This document shows positions 57,862 through 64,000 of a DNA stretch of 64,000 bases, piece by piece (within the stretch, counting starts at the first letter, position 1; each line of letters starts with the position of its first letter). Source of the stretch: Halosolutus halophilus (GTDB taxonomy: Archaea; Halobacteriota; Halobacteria; Halobacteriales; Natrialbaceae); NCBI RefSeq assembly GCF_022869805.1, contig NZ_CP094974.1:3596001-3660000 (forward strand), given 5' to 3'. A program made the translations under genes and the position numbers. The notes beneath the pieces are model-generated. The model was not told where the DNA came from. It worked only from the letters and a program-made list of their open reading frames with translations, and did no database searches.

Positions 57862-59568
57862 CTGGCTCAGCTCCGCGCCTACAAGCGTTTCGTCATCGTC
57901 GCGTGGCACTTTCTCCCGCTGTTGCTCGCGTATGCGCGCGATCGGCGGCGGTTCCTGCTGTTCGGTCGCCGTCGACGGGTCGATCCCGCGACGCATCGCC
58001 ACCGTGCGGAGGTCCTGCTCGAGTCGCTGTTGACGCTCGGCCCGACGTTCATCAAACTCGGCCAGTTGCTGTCGACCCGTCCCGACGTGCTCCCGCCGGA
58101 GTACATCGACGTGCTCTCGGCGCTGCAAGACGAGGTACCGCCGGCCGACTGGGTCGAGGCGAAACGGGTCCTCGAGGACGAACTCGGCCCCGTCGAGGAG
58201 CGGTTCGTCGAGTTCGACACCGACGCGATCAGCGGCGCGAGCCTGGGACAGGTGTACCGGGCACGTGTCGACGGGCAAGTCGAGGTTCGGGACGACGGCA
58301 CAGCGCGGGAGGTCGTCCACGACGTCGCGGTCAAGATCCGCCGCCCGAGCATCGAGGACCTGGTGGAGGCCGACCTGCGGGTCGTCCGCTGGTCGCTCCC
58401 GATCCTGATGTACTTCGTCGACGACTCGCGGGCCTTCTCGCTCGAGAACCTCGCCGACGAGTTCGCCAAGACGATCCGCGAGGAGATGGACTACGAGCGC
58501 GAGGCGACGATGCTCTCCGAAATTCGGGAGAACTTCGACGACGACGATCGGTTCGTCATCCCCCGCGTGATCGAGAGCCACTCGGGACCGCGCGTGCTCA
58601 CGATGGAGTACATCGAGGGGACGAAGATCAACGACGTCGCGGAACTCGATCGCAGGGGGATCGACCGGACCGCCATCGCGGAGAACCTGCAGCGATCGTA
58701 CCTCCAGATGATCATCGACGACGGGGTCTTCCACGCCGATCCGCACCCGGGGAACCTCGCGGTGACCGACGAGGGTCGGATCATCTTCTACGACTTCGGG
58801 ATGTCCGGCCGGGTCGACGAGTTCGTCCAGGAGAAGATCGTCGACTTCTACATCGCGGTCGCCAACCAGGACATCGACGCGATCCTCGACGCGCTGATCG
58901 AGATCGGTACCCTGAGCCCCGAGGCCGATCGGGGCGTGATGGCGGAGGTGATGGAACTGGCGATCGAAGACGCCCGCGGGCAGGACATCGAACAGTACCG
59001 CGTCCAGCAGATCGTCGGCCAGATCGAGGACTCGATCTACGAGTTCCCCTTCCGCCTGCCGAAGAACCTCGCGCTCGTCCTGCGGGTCGCGACCGTCGTC
59101 GAGGGGGTCTGCGTCACGCTCGATTCGAACTTCGACTTCATCGCGACCGCGACCGACTACCTGACCGAGCAGGGCTACCGCGAGGAGTCCATCCGCAAGT
59201 ACCTCGAGAACTCCGGCGAGCAACTCCGCCGGTCGGGCGAGTCACTGGCCCGGATCGCGCCGAAGACCGAACGCGCGCTCGATCGCCTCGATCGCGACGA
59301 CCTCCACGTCCGCATCGGCGTCGAGGACTCGAAGGGCGTCTTCGACACCCTCGCCCGACGGCTGATCTACGGCATGCTGCTGACGATGTCGCTGTTCTCG
59401 ATGGGCGTCCTCTACGCGCTGGAGGCCCCGGAGGCGTCGATCGTCGCGGCGGTCTTCTCGGCTCTCGTCGTCGTGTTACTCTACCGATCGTTCCGGGAGC
59501 CGAAGTCGATCGGCGCGAAGCCACAGTTCACGCGGCAGAACCTCCGGCAGCGCCGTCGAGAGGAATAG
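57862..59568 (+). CDS. ABC1/UbiB (AarF) family atypical kinase
   Basis: A protein-kinase-like ABC1 family member, 568 residues if translation starts at CTG (508 GC-rich codons of homology follow; a TTG at 57922 would give 548). Motifs are TFIKLGQLLSTRPDVLP, ISGASLGQVYRA (Ala-rich loop replacing the kinase glycine loop), VAVKIRRPS, HADPHPGNL and YDFGMSG. Two C-terminal TM helices anchor it. It affects ubiquinone/isoprenoid quinone metabolism in bacteria and mitochondria. The segment LRAYKRFVIVAWHFLPLLLA upstream of the TTG resembles the normal family N-terminus, supporting the CTG start. Confidence 0.85.
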   Translation: MAQLRAYKRFVIVAWHFLPLLLAYARDRRRFLLFGRRRRVDPATHRHRAEVLLESLLTLGPTFIKLGQLLSTRPDVLPPEYIDVLSALQDEVPPADWVEAKRVLEDELGPVEERFVEFDTDAISGASLGQVYRARVDGQVEVRDDGTAREVVHDVAVKIRRPSIEDLVEADLRVVRWSLPILMYFVDDSRAFSLENLADEFAKTIREEMDYEREATMLSEIRENFDDDDRFVIPRVIESHSGPRVLTMEYIEGTKINDVAELDRRGIDRTAIAENLQRSYLQMIIDDGVFHADPHPGNLAVTDEGRIIFYDFGMSGRVDEFVQEKIVDFYIAVANQDIDAILDALIEIGTLSPEADRGVMAEVMELAIEDARGQDIEQYRVQQIVGQIEDSIYEFPFRLPKNLALVLRVATVVEGVCVTLDSNFDFIATATDYLTEQGYREESIRKYLENSGEQLRRSGESLARIAPKTERALDRLDRDDLHVRIGVEDSKGVFDTLARRLIYGMLLTMSLFSMGVLYALEAPEASIVAAVFSALVVVLLYRSFREPKSIGAKPQFTRQNLRQRRREE

Positions 59569-59699
59569 GAGTCGGCGAGTGCGCGACGTCTTCGATCGGC
59601 GGAGAGACGTCGGACGCCGATCGACTCGGACGATCGATCGCTCAGGCCGCCTCTTCCACGTGGTCTCGCTATCGATCCGTCGGGATTGCGTTGCAGACG

Positions 59700-60310
59700 T
59701 CAGTTCCCAGTCCTCCGCTCGATCCGGATGACGTAGAAGCCGACCAGCCCTGCGTAGATGTTGAGCCGGCAGACCCATTGCGTGGTCGTGATACGGCGAT
59801 GTGAGGCGAAAGTGGCGGTTCTGGACGTCGTGGACGTCCGTGACGAATCGAGGACCAGTAACTCCGTCCGGCGATTTCCACTTATCGGCTCGACCGTCGC
59901 TCTCTGGCTCGACGTTGAGTCTGGAAACGGGTTACCGTGCGAACGTCCGGAACAGGACCATCGTAATCGGGATAATCCTCGGGTTTCGTTCCCCGATCCG
60001 CTCGTCGGCGTTCGGAAGGTGCTCCGTGGGCGGATGACTGCTGTCGAAACGGACCTCGATCCGCTCGTTACGACGCGCCCGGGTGATCGCCCGGGAAACT
60101 GCCCGTCGAACCCTCAGAGCGTAGTTTCGGGAAGATCCGGGCGGAGTTTCTCGGAAAACTCTACCGCCGGAATCGATCGCGGTTGCACGTATTCGTCGAG
60201 TTCGGGTAACGACCGTGCGACAGCACTCTCGGAACTCACAGAGAGGACCCCGGCGATCTCACTGCTTTGGCGGTCGCTTTCAGCACCCTGCGTCGAGTGG
60301 GTGCCGTTAT
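59700..60310 (-). pseudogene. Decayed CotA-like multicopper oxidase fragment
   Basis: Reading the minus strand in shifting frames recovers, in order: a Tat-like TRRRVLKATA, a signal tail AGVLSVSSESAVA, LPELDEYVQPRSIPAVEF, KLRPDLPETTL followed by an in-frame TGA where Trp is expected, GFDGQFPG, ARRNERIEVRFDSSHPP, NVEPESDGRADKW, SPDGVTGPRFVTDVHDVQN, the copper-ligand motif PYHDHAMG and RLNIYAGLVGFYVIR, then a stop. This is the N-terminal third of a spore-coat-CotA-type multicopper oxidase with at least three frame changes and one nonsense mutation. The C-terminal copper sites are absent. The intact parent gene is not in the window. Confidence 0.75.
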
Positions 60311-60790
60311 CTACAACTCGGTTTTACATGATTAGTTATTAGCAAACAACGGCAGGATCTATACGACAAGATTCCAGGCTGTGATTTCTGCGGGTAGTTT
60401 CGTACTGGTCAACTGGACCGATCGACGCCGAGATCTACCGACGGACACGGTGGGAGTCGCGGGATTTGTTGAGAACGCTTTTCAGTCATCTTTCAGGGGT
60501 GGATCATCGTTGCGCGGTTGCCGCCCGTCGCGGTACGTGTGTCCACCGGCGCAGCGTGCCGCCTCTGGTGCAGTAAGGCCCTCTATCCGTCCGCAGTTTC
60601 TCTCGTACCCTGCTCCGGTATCGATTTTCCGATCACTTTGAAAATTCGATAAGGTTCGCATTCCAAACGCTCTCCGCCGGTTAATTTGGTTAGATATCTA
60701 CTGATACGTAGACAATACTGTGTCTTAATTATATTACTAAAATCATACTAATATCGCCGCTATCCGGTTATCAGAACGGGTGGATTCCAG
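60311..60790. other. AT-rich intergenic region upstream of the LVIVD genes
   Basis: GC drops from the oxidase remnant to the first LVIVD gene. The last 90 bp (60700-60757) are very AT-rich (TTAATTATATTACTAAAATC) and precede CTATCCGG/TTATCA elements at 60759-60773, which should hold the promoter. A possible minus-strand 59-codon frame is listed separately. No transposase or repeat was recognised. Confidence 0.45.
60482..60661 (-). CDS. Possible small protein, 59 residues
   Basis: A short minus-strand frame starts MRTLSNFQSDRKID and ends GRQPRNDDPPLKDD. The central part contains two cysteines (NCGRIEGLTAPEAARCAGG), spaced as in small zinc-binding domains. Codon bias is good only in the second half, and the start is AT-rich, so it could be a remnant like the oxidase next to it. 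A minus-strand AAATTAAC lies about 21-28 nt upstream. Low confidence. Confidence 0.2.
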   Translation of the reverse strand: MRTLSNFQSDRKIDTGAGYERNCGRIEGLTAPEAARCAGGHTYRDGRQPRNDDPPLKDD

Positions 60791-62089
60791 ATGCGACAGA
60801 ACCGACGTTCGATGCTGAAAGCGTTGGGCGCAAGTGCCGCGATCGTCACTGGCGCCGGGGCAGCGAGCGCGACGAGCGCCGACCCGGGTCAAAACCGAAA
60901 CCGATCGGGTCGCCCGAAGAAGGGGCGCCTGCACAAACTCGGTCACTCGCTGCTCTCGGACCCGCCGGGAGGGTACGCCGAGGGAGTCATCCGATCCGAC
61001 GGGCAGTACGGGCTGCTCGGTAGCTTCCTCGGGGAAGGAGGGAGCTTCCTCGTCGACCTCTCGAACCCGACCGATCCGACCGAGGCCCACCGCGTCCCCT
61101 CCTCGGCAGACGTGCGGAACGCGGACGTCGCGTTCGATCCGCGCGACGGCCTCTACTACCGGACGCAGGAACCGAACGTCGACGGTGCCGAGTTCGTCGG
61201 CGTCGAGGTCGTCGACTACGGGTACGACCGGGGGACGCCGGAGAACCCCGTGATCGCCGGGGAGATCCCGGCCGGTCCGACGCACAACGTGTTTCCCCAC
61301 CCCGAGGCGTCGATCCTCTACACCACCGAACACGACGGGATGGGCATCTGGGATGTGACCGATCCGACGAGCGCGGAGTCGCTCGGCGTCGTCGGTCCGG
61401 ACGCGGACCTCCACGACGTCGTCGTCGACCCCGACCGCGAGCTGGCGCACCTCGCGTTCATCGGCGGCGGACTCGACGGCTACGTCGTCATGGACGTGAG
61501 CAACCCCGCCGCGCCGACCGAACTCGGGCGGTTCGACTACGCCGGGCGCCCGGGGTACACCGAGATCGGCACGGCCGGCTTCGAGAACTGTCACTACGCC
61601 GACTACGATCCCGAACGGGATCTCGTGGTCGTGGGCGACGAGATCGGTTTCGGCGTCCCCGGCGGCAAGCATATCTTCGACGTCGGCTGGGACGATGGGT
61701 CCCCCGAGGATCCCCGCCACGTCGGGTTCACGCACTCGCCCAACGCGGAGGTGATGGACGAACCGATCGAGTTCCTCGACTGGACGACGCACAACCACGA
61801 CGTCATCCCGAAGGGCAACACGACCCTGCTGGTCGACGGCGGGTACCGCGAGGGGGCGTGGGTCGCCGACATCACCGATCCGACCGACCCGACCCCGACC
61901 GATCGCTACGCGACGCTCGACAGGGTCGACGAGGCCGACGGGATGCTCATCCCTGAGAATCCGCCCGTCGCCTGGAGCGCCGACTACAGCCGCGAGCGCG
62001 ACCTCACCCTCGTCGCCGACCAGGAGACCGGCGTCTACACGTTCAAGGTCACACCCGGCGCCGCGAAGGGCGGGAGGGGAAAGAGATGA
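60791..62089 (+). CDS. Tat-exported LVIVD-repeat beta-propeller protein (copy 1)
   Basis: A 432-residue secreted protein. The Tat signal RRSMLKALGASAAIVTGAGA at 5-24 is followed by repeated LVIVD-type blades of the form V-x-x-LSNPTDPTE/DVTDPTS/DVSNPAAPTE/DITDPTDPT. These repeats build a beta-propeller. There is no lipobox, so it should be released or cell-wall associated. It is the first of three adjacent paralogues. Histidines in DWTTHNHDVIP and PTHNVFPHP might bind metal, as a guess. The C-terminus is Lys/Arg/Gly-rich, odd for a haloarchaeal exoprotein. Confidence 0.85.
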   Translation: MRQNRRSMLKALGASAAIVTGAGAASATSADPGQNRNRSGRPKKGRLHKLGHSLLSDPPGGYAEGVIRSDGQYGLLGSFLGEGGSFLVDLSNPTDPTEAHRVPSSADVRNADVAFDPRDGLYYRTQEPNVDGAEFVGVEVVDYGYDRGTPENPVIAGEIPAGPTHNVFPHPEASILYTTEHDGMGIWDVTDPTSAESLGVVGPDADLHDVVVDPDRELAHLAFIGGGLDGYVVMDVSNPAAPTELGRFDYAGRPGYTEIGTAGFENCHYADYDPERDLVVVGDEIGFGVPGGKHIFDVGWDDGSPEDPRHVGFTHSPNAEVMDEPIEFLDWTTHNHDVIPKGNTTLLVDGGYREGAWVADITDPTDPTPTDRYATLDRVDEADGMLIPENPPVAWSADYSRERDLTLVADQETGVYTFKVTPGAAKGGRGKR

Positions 62090-62156
62090 TCGACCGATCG
62101 TTCGAGCGATCGCTGTATCGGCTCGAAACTGACCGCGAAACCACGAGATACAATAC

Positions 62157-63467
62157 ATGCCACTAGATCCGACACCGTCACGACGAACCGTTATCAAATC
62201 GCTCGCCGCTGCGGGTGTGCTCGGCAGCGCCGACGCTGCGAGCGCCGACCCGCCCGGTGAGCGGGACGAGCAACTGCGACTGTTCAGCGAACAGGCTGCT
62301 GACAACGCGATGGAGGTCGTCACGCAGCAGAACCACGCTTACGTGGCGACCGGCGACGGGATGGCGATCGTCGACTGGCGAAACCCGTCCCGACCGGAAC
62401 TCGTTGCCGACATCGAGGCGTCCGATCCTGACGAGATCGGCGGCGACGACGAGGGTTCAGTCGGCGGCATCCTCGACGTGAAGGTCGACGGCGACCTCGC
62501 CGCGATGGCCCACAACGGCGGGACCGGTATCACGACGGTCGACGTCAGCGATCCCGAGAACCCGGACGAACTGGCGTTCCAGAACGCCGGACACGGCGTG
62601 CACAACGCCTTCCTGAAGGACGGGTACGCCTATCTCACGATCAACGAGTCGGACGAGAACGTATTCAGTGAGGCGCGCACGGATATCGTCGACGTCAGTG
62701 ATCCGTCGGATCCCGAGAAGGTCGGCGAATACCGACTCGGCGACGACTTCCCCGAATTCGCGGCTGCGGGGGTCAATCCGAACCACGACGTGTACGTCCA
62801 GGGCGACCTCCTGTATCAGGCGTACTGGGACGCGGGTGTCGTCGTCGCGGACGTGAGCGACCCGACCGACCCCGAGCTAGTCGCTCAGTTCGGCGACGCT
62901 CCCGGGGCAGACACGCCGCAACCGGACCCGTTTCCGGTAGAGCGATACTACGCTGGCGAGGGTAACGCCCACTACGTCCAGCCCTCGCCCGATGGCGACC
63001 TCACGTTCGTCGGCGACGAGAAGTTCCCCGGCGCCTTCCAGGAAGATCCCCCGACCGAGGAGTTCGGTGGCGTCCGGATCTTCGACACGAGCGACTGGAA
63101 CGACGTCGAGCAGGTCGGGTTCATCGCGCCGCCGGACGTCGACGTCGGCCTCCGCACGTCGCACAACTTCGACGTGACGGCCAACCGCATCCACACCTCG
63201 TGGTACAACGGCGGCGTCCGGGTCCACGATATCACGGACCCGACCGACCCGGAGCTGCTGTACTCCTACAATCCCGAGGGGTACTCCTTCTGGACAGCCG
63301 TGCGCGGTCGCGGGTTCACGCTCGGCGGTATCTACGGCGCCAGGTCCGACATCCACGACGGCGGCGTCGTCTTCCTCCACGCCGACCGCGGGCAGCGGCG
63401 AGCGCCCTCGTTCGAGGGGTCGGCCCCGCCCAGCGGCCCCGAGATCGACGTCGACGAGGAGGAATAG
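62157..63467 (+). CDS. Tat-exported LVIVD-repeat beta-propeller protein (copy 2)
   Basis: A 436-residue paralogue of its neighbours. The signal is RRTVIKSLAAAGVLGSADAASA. Blades are marked by MAIVDWRNPSRPELV, VDVSDPENPDELAF, DIVDVSDPSDPEKV, VVADVSDPTDPELV and RVHDITDPTDPELL. The conserved QNHAYVATGDGMAIVD block is very close to copy 3, so these two are the most recent duplicates. Ends acidic (DEEE), unlike copy 1. The interval from copy 1 is only 67 nt and to copy 3 only 28 nt, suggesting an operon. Confidence 0.85.
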   Translation: MPLDPTPSRRTVIKSLAAAGVLGSADAASADPPGERDEQLRLFSEQAADNAMEVVTQQNHAYVATGDGMAIVDWRNPSRPELVADIEASDPDEIGGDDEGSVGGILDVKVDGDLAAMAHNGGTGITTVDVSDPENPDELAFQNAGHGVHNAFLKDGYAYLTINESDENVFSEARTDIVDVSDPSDPEKVGEYRLGDDFPEFAAAGVNPNHDVYVQGDLLYQAYWDAGVVVADVSDPTDPELVAQFGDAPGADTPQPDPFPVERYYAGEGNAHYVQPSPDGDLTFVGDEKFPGAFQEDPPTEEFGGVRIFDTSDWNDVEQVGFIAPPDVDVGLRTSHNFDVTANRIHTSWYNGGVRVHDITDPTDPELLYSYNPEGYSFWTAVRGRGFTLGGIYGARSDIHDGGVVFLHADRGQRRAPSFEGSAPPSGPEIDVDEEE

Positions 63468-63495
63468 CCCTCAAACGGAATCTCAGATCAGAACC

Positions 63496-64000
63496 ATGGC
63501 CCAGCGATACACCCGACGCACGACACTCAAAGCCCTGGGCGCTGCAGGCGCCCTCGGGAGCATCGACACGGCGAGCGCAGACCCACCGGAGCGAGACGGG
63601 CTCCGGCTGTTCGGCGAGCAGGCGATCGACGGCACGACCGAAGTCGTCACGCAGCAGACCCTCGCGTTCGTGGCGACCGGTGACGGCCTCGCGATCGTCG
63701 ACTTGCGCAATCCGGGACGCCCGGAGTTGCTTGTCGACACCGAAGTACCCGGAACCGGCGTCAACGACGTCAAAGTAGACGGAGATCTGCTCGCAATCAG
63801 CAGTCAGGCCGGCGATCAGGACGAAGACATCGGAACGCACTTCTACGATGTCAGCGATCCCACCGATCCCGAGTTCCTCGGCACCTGGGTCGAACTCCCG
63901 GCGGGCGTCCACAACCACTACCTCGACGGCGACGTCGCGTACATCTGCCGGGAGTTCCCCTTCGACGACAGCGCGCTGAAGATCGTCGACGCGAGCGACC
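63496..64000 (+). CDS. Tat-exported LVIVD-repeat protein (copy 3, truncated by window edge)
   Basis: The first 168 residues of a third LVIVD-propeller paralogue; the frame runs off the window end. The Tat signal is RRTTLKALGAAGALGS. The segments QQTLAFVATGDGLAIVDL and FYDVSDPTDPEFL mirror copy 2. The start ATG follows the copy 2 stop by 28 nt. Completeness cannot be judged. Confidence 0.82.
   Translation, partial: MAQRYTRRTTLKALGAAGALGSIDTASADPPERDGLRLFGEQAIDGTTEVVTQQTLAFVATGDGLAIVDLRNPGRPELLVDTEVPGTGVNDVKVDGDLLAISSQAGDQDEDIGTHFYDVSDPTDPEFLGTWVELPAGVHNHYLDGDVAYICREFPFDDSALKIVDASD

Follow-up and report, generated by a model that had tools for sequence, protein, structure and literature searches.

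The features described here lie near the right end of the window (the whole stretch of 64,000 nucleotides of Halosolutus halophilus DNA that was analysed). An ABC1/UbiB-like atypical kinase (PF03109), matched in 58 of 61 genomes, is coded on the plus strand at 57922–59568 and represents the conserved left flank of an insert. Behind it, on the minus strand (59710–60301), lies a relic of the front part of a multicopper oxidase (MCO) gene, followed on the plus strand by three intact genes: LV1 (60791–62089, 432 aa) and LV2 (62157–63467, 436 aa), both coding for LVIVD-repeat proteins (PF08309) with Tat-like signals, and the open reading frame LV3 (63496–64000, on to 64752 beyond the window, 418 aa), coding for an LVIVD-type protein. 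LV2 and LV3 also match TIGR04312, below its cut-off. Just past the window, at 64918–64989 (within L061) and near the right border of the insert, a piece of another LVIVD gene, the fourth, codes for 24 residues with 75% identity to LV2. A second LVIVD place in the host genome (L214 8087–9557; G000:C1, ~3.385–3.387 Mb) has an LV2-like gene and an LV1-like fragment of 80 residues, and no MCO was found in 19 kb there. A 194-aa ORF antisense to the relic (59758–60342, plus strand) is probably spurious; a gene finder might call it instead of the relic.

Reading the minus strand at 59700–60310 through its broken frames gives, one after another, TRRRVLKATA, SLPELDEYVQP, EFSEKLRPDLPETTL with a stop and GFDGQFPG, RARRNERIEVRFDSS, KPEDYPDYDGPVPDVRTVTRFQ, LNVEPESDGRADKWKSPDGVTGPRFVTDVHDV, TSPYHDHAMG, and RLNIYAGLVGFYVIR. 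All motifs named in the first-pass annotation, which had read this stretch as the relic of an MCO N-terminal domain, were found there. According to frameshift-tolerant alignment, DNA identity, and tblastn, the relic corresponds approximately to residues 7–222 of the 561-aa MCO L184 of genome G374, that is, to the N-terminal ~40% of the protein. The loss of the C-terminal part is thus real, with an extent of ~60% and not the two thirds given before. L184 is the best intact relative, with an alignment score of 591, 130 of 192 aligned residues identical (68%), and 76.7% DNA identity over 446 bases. The aligner was custom-written, and its controls used L187 as the reference (score 506); 100 first-order Markov shuffles of the relic region reached at most 57, and 154 segments of 800 bases from elsewhere in the window, on both strands, at most 62. 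When 35 intact haloarchaeal MCO proteins, with frames taken from loci found by DNA comparison, were used as tblastn queries, all 35 matched the window, and only at 59616–60296 on the minus strand, which bears out the claimed MCO similarity. Matches to the relic DNA are present in 12 of 61 genomes, mostly of the genus and family, and in 36 of 125 family genomes, the host genome being counted in both sets. Single-frame translations of the relic gave no Pfam match (0/3 frames) and nothing above chance in NCBIfam (one weak match, PhsA, E 0.016); family annotation would therefore miss the relic.

The MCO homology ends at ~59710. Between this point and the kinase stop (59569–59709) no MCO signal was detected, as for each of four queries between 12 and 42 of the 60 shuffles did equally well; MCO remains in this segment were rejected on these grounds, despite some tblastn pieces reaching 59616. 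No detached C-terminal MCO part was found elsewhere in the host genome, where only an intact paralogue and pieces of the relic were recognized.

The beginning of the relic, PTRRRVLKATA (60266–60301, minus strand), was identified by translation and aligns with PTRRTVLKAAG and PSRRRVLKVGT of intact relatives. It carries the twin-arginine motif expected of a Tat-exported protein, and the Tat signal attributed earlier to the former gene holds; the reading frame is lost immediately behind this motif. In the alignment, a TGA stop at 60116–60114 (60114–60116, minus strand; ETTL-stop-GFDGQFPG) stands in place of Trp of the intact relatives, as had been stated. The first copper motif, THFHG in intact relatives (HxHG type), is changed to T-R-F-Q followed by a frameshift (59921–59932, minus strand), with both His residues lost. 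The copper-ligand motif PYHDHAMG is retained at 59773–59796 on the minus strand, in accordance with the earlier reading, and the frame is lost ~4 bases further on. Indels were located near 60088 (−1), 59993 (−1), 59920 (−2), and 59769 (−2), with one further in the signal peptide near 60225–60266 and perhaps another near 59722. Frameshifts had been recognized before but undercounted at about three; there are at least five, in addition to the Trp-to-TGA stop and a deletion of 18 codons after YVQP/SIPAV. The frame change in the signal peptide, the 18-codon deletion, the TGA, and the indels near 60088, 59993, 59920, and 59769 are common to alignments with several references.

Among the four His-rich MCO motifs (HxHG, HxH, HxxHxH, and HCHxxxH), only YHDH is kept, and the last two fall within the missing part; the stretch is therefore a relic and not an enzyme. 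Neither is there an open frame of about 500–700 residues, given the stop, at least five indels, the deletion, and the truncation. The relic covers 37 columns that do not vary among 26 intact relatives; it departs from these at four, two of which are copper ligands. When intact MCOs were left out in turn, 0 to 4 invariant columns were changed, so that the relic stands out from most intact members and not from the divergent L015 (4 of 41). Compared with L184, the relic has 14, 22, and 62 differences at the three codon positions in 139 codons, a pattern still coding-like, with no clear excess at positions 1 and 2 such as long-term neutral decay would give. The death of the gene is therefore recent relative to its divergence. 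Intact homologues exist, disabling changes are present, and conserved residues are lost, and the relic is an ordinary pseudogene, judged to be young.

An intact MCO of 614 aa (L071; G000:C1, ~3.589–3.591 Mb) is coded in the host genome ~65 kb from the relic, outside the window; in a rough gene table its neighbours are common to those of the G002 gene L069. The earlier gloss of a lost surface oxidase needs qualifying, as this intact MCO of another lineage is kept. In the tree, the host MCO groups with the G002 gene at a starred node, and the relic is not in that lineage; it is placed beside L184 with support of 94/77, which is below the star level of the tool, and there is a warning from the tool that long branches are joined. 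Rows of L035, L039, and L118, which lack the motif used for cutting, were dropped, and L210, L211, and L213 are not in the tree.

The relic and LV1–LV3 are located in a block (59556–64000, extending past the window to ~65099) that G002, the closest relative with a kinase 94% identical, does not have. When the kinase loci were compared in blastn, homology with G002 stopped at 59555 and resumed at 65100, with 28 bases in between. The block is flanked by the ABC1 kinase on one side and, on the other, by a gene that begins at 65100 and is convergent with it; the missing side of the relic faces the border of the block next to the kinase. In G024 and G031 the kinase runs straight to the gene at 66530, and in G001 and G010 the kinase junction has ~6.0 and ~1.9 kb of other sequence, respectively. 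No full MCO gene exists at these five syntenic loci, where the first-pass annotation had proposed to look for one; this reflects the missing block, and not a stretch that had never held a gene. The local gene loss proposed there gives way to an insert. The borders revealed no transposase or target-site duplication (by eye and with a 10-base match only), and nothing convincing in the way of direct or inverted repeats. The junction 59556–66530 and its counterparts (L063–L067) vary in length, from ~7 kb here to 6.0 kb in G001, 1.9 kb in G010, and next to nothing in G024 and G031; an insertion hot spot possibly exists behind the ABC1 kinase.

The neighbourhood of LV1 was surveyed in 20 stretches around LV1-type genes, together with L072, L073, L077, and the locus of the window. 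LV1 with at least 60% identity was found in eight genomes other than the host, and in four of them (G374, G398, G162, and G208, the last two of one genus) an MCO adjoins it on the same strand. The remaining four (G418, G035, G062, and G230) have no adjacent MCO, and none was seen at 14 more distant LV1 loci, which are a selection from the match lists and not all matches. In G374, which has the best match of LV1 (65%), the gene order is MCO-LV1-LV2-LV3, with L184 directly upstream of the three, and DNA identity to the window is alike for the relic (77%) and LV1 (73%). The order LV1-LV2-LV3-MCO occurs in two Halobacterium-type genomes; in Halobacterium sp. TGN-42-S1 the MCO (L077) follows directly. 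MCO and LV1 are also neighbours on one strand of Haladaptatus plasmids (megaplasmids) of DYSN1, YSMS36, and QDMS2, one of which belongs to one of the four MCO-adjacent genomes, and in Haladaptatus sp. DYSN1 they are ~70 bases apart. In the window the pair is adjacent but divergent, and the MCO is dead. Class-wide, 29 of 391 genomes have an L184-type MCO (E ≤ 1e-150), 35 have LV1 (E ≤ 1e-60), and 14 have LV2 (E ≤ 1e-80). A search for LVIVD genes at 80 MCO loci from named genomes, many of them bacterial, gave a match in L077 only. No LVIVD gene is present in 16 kb around L210 and L211, MCOs nearly as close to the relic. Genome G285 codes for an LV2 homologue 81% identical to that of the window (L212 8557–9837), with no MCO in 20 kb; at another place in this genome (L211) there is an MCO of CotA type that is closely similar to the relic.

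A C-terminal MCO remnant lies directly after LV1-LV2 on the Halorussus aquaticus plasmid NZ_CP100402.1 (L209 8498–8644). It reads QYPWHCHILKHED, stop, SMV, stop, PFEVV, with both stops in frame, and shows that an LVIVD cluster has lost its oxidase a second time, independently. Among 22 other LVIVD loci inspected for MCO remnants, L209 has the only real one. The MCO matches nearest to the LV genes in L072 and L185 proved to be Tat signal peptides and not MCO remnants, and a weak MCO-like match in L190 (best E 1.2e-6) is more than 3 kb from LV1.

The best explanation, and very probably the correct one, is an acquired MCO-LVIVD block whose oxidase decayed while the propellers stayed. A CotA-type, Tat-exported MCO and three Tat-signal LVIVD propeller genes would have come from another haloarchaeon and landed between the ABC1 kinase and the convergent gene beginning at 65100. 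The oxidase gene may have been incomplete already on arrival, or its last 60% may have gone missing at the junction with the kinase, its remaining part having presumably been turned around in the insert. In the decay that would have followed, it acquired the nonsense change and the indels and its first copper motif was destroyed, with the propellers kept intact. Joint acquisition is supported by the best matches of the relic (L184) and LV1 lying side by side in G374; the joint arrival, the direction of transfer, and the order of events are inferred. The propellers would still work without the lost oxidase, or with the other MCO of the host. They are neighbours of the oxidase in other genomes as well, so that the expansion first read from them is not supported. 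The main loose end of the acquisition account is the inverted orientation: the relic points away from LV1, and MCO and LV1 share a strand in all linked relatives seen, so that one has to assume an inversion or else that the two arrived separately.

That an MCO fragment and the LVIVD genes reached a hot spot after the kinase independently is unlikely. The different sequences at this junction in G001 and G010, the relic orientation opposite to LV1, and the absence of an adjoining MCO at four of the eight closest LV1 loci would fit such separate arrival, but MCO-LVIVD adjacency recurs elsewhere, and the best relatives of both genes are neighbours in one genome, G374. Quite unlikely is loss in place, with the oxidase as an ancestral chromosomal gene of the junction and the propellers arriving or multiplying later. 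It would account for a relic divergent to LV1, which linked relatives do not have; against it are the 28 bases that replace the block in G002, the direct run from the kinase to the 66530 gene in G024 and G031, and the position of the relic outside the lineage of the conserved MCO of the genus. A sequencing or assembly artefact, with an intact gene misread, is very improbable, as the ORFs on either side are intact and open, the genome consists of a single contig, and base-call errors do not produce ligand substitutions, a deletion of many codons, or a truncation by 60%. It is hardly conceivable that programmed frameshifting and stop readthrough still yield a short copper protein: YHDHAMG, much of the sequence, and the codon-position bias survive, but at least five indels, the stop, and the 18-codon deletion are present, and the HxHG ligands are gone, as is the entire C-terminal domain, which carried the remaining ligands.

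Taken alone, the relic is just another pseudogene of a haloarchaeon, and the more valuable finding lies in what surrounds it. That LVIVD genes recurrently adjoin the gene of a secreted copper oxidase offers a testable functional link for propellers of little known function, and suggests that the propellers can outlive the oxidase. Tentatively, with slightly less than even odds, the exported CotA-type oxidase and tandem LVIVD propellers may form a mobile haloarchaeal module, chromosomal as well as megaplasmid-borne, from which the oxidase is repeatedly lost and the propellers stay, the window relic and L209 being two independent deaths. At the cell surface, either the oxidase or its substrate might then be held or presented by the propellers, which might serve another purpose where the oxidase is absent; such a surface scaffold or substrate-binding role is conjecture. 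A literature search gave no paper naming both LVIVD and multicopper oxidase, and this pairing, a little-studied gene partnership, is the part worth following.

L184 has Cu-oxidase_3 and Cu-oxidase_2 domains, and its nearest solved structure is Bacillus CotA (1gsk, E 1.1e-113, residues 39–539), which agrees with the CotA type assigned in the first-pass annotation. "Tat-exported CotA-type" is a fair name for the original gene, and by homology of its N-terminal cupredoxin domain the relic is a dead member of this type. L184 belongs to the same family as the CotA laccase of Bacillus, with the motifs YHDHA and RLN.YAGL.G in common. Bacillus CotA is a spore-coat protein according to the title of 1gsk, whereas its archaeal relatives have Tat signals. 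Compared with CotA, the relic is truncated and without HxHG ligands, and cannot encode an enzyme. The neighbours of the relic, and not the relic itself, belong to the LVIVD-repeat proteins (PF08309; TIGR04312, choice-of-anchor B). The studied haloarchaeal laccase is LccA of Haloferax volcanii, a secreted MCO. The subfamily of the relic is the haloarchaeal CotA-like MCO clade, with members in Halobacterium sp. TGN-42-S1 (L077), Haladaptatus sp. DYSN1 (WP_277506421.1), and Natronococcus sp. CG52; several members of this clade adjoin LVIVD genes and, unlike the relic, they are intact and, where linked, on the same strand as LV1.
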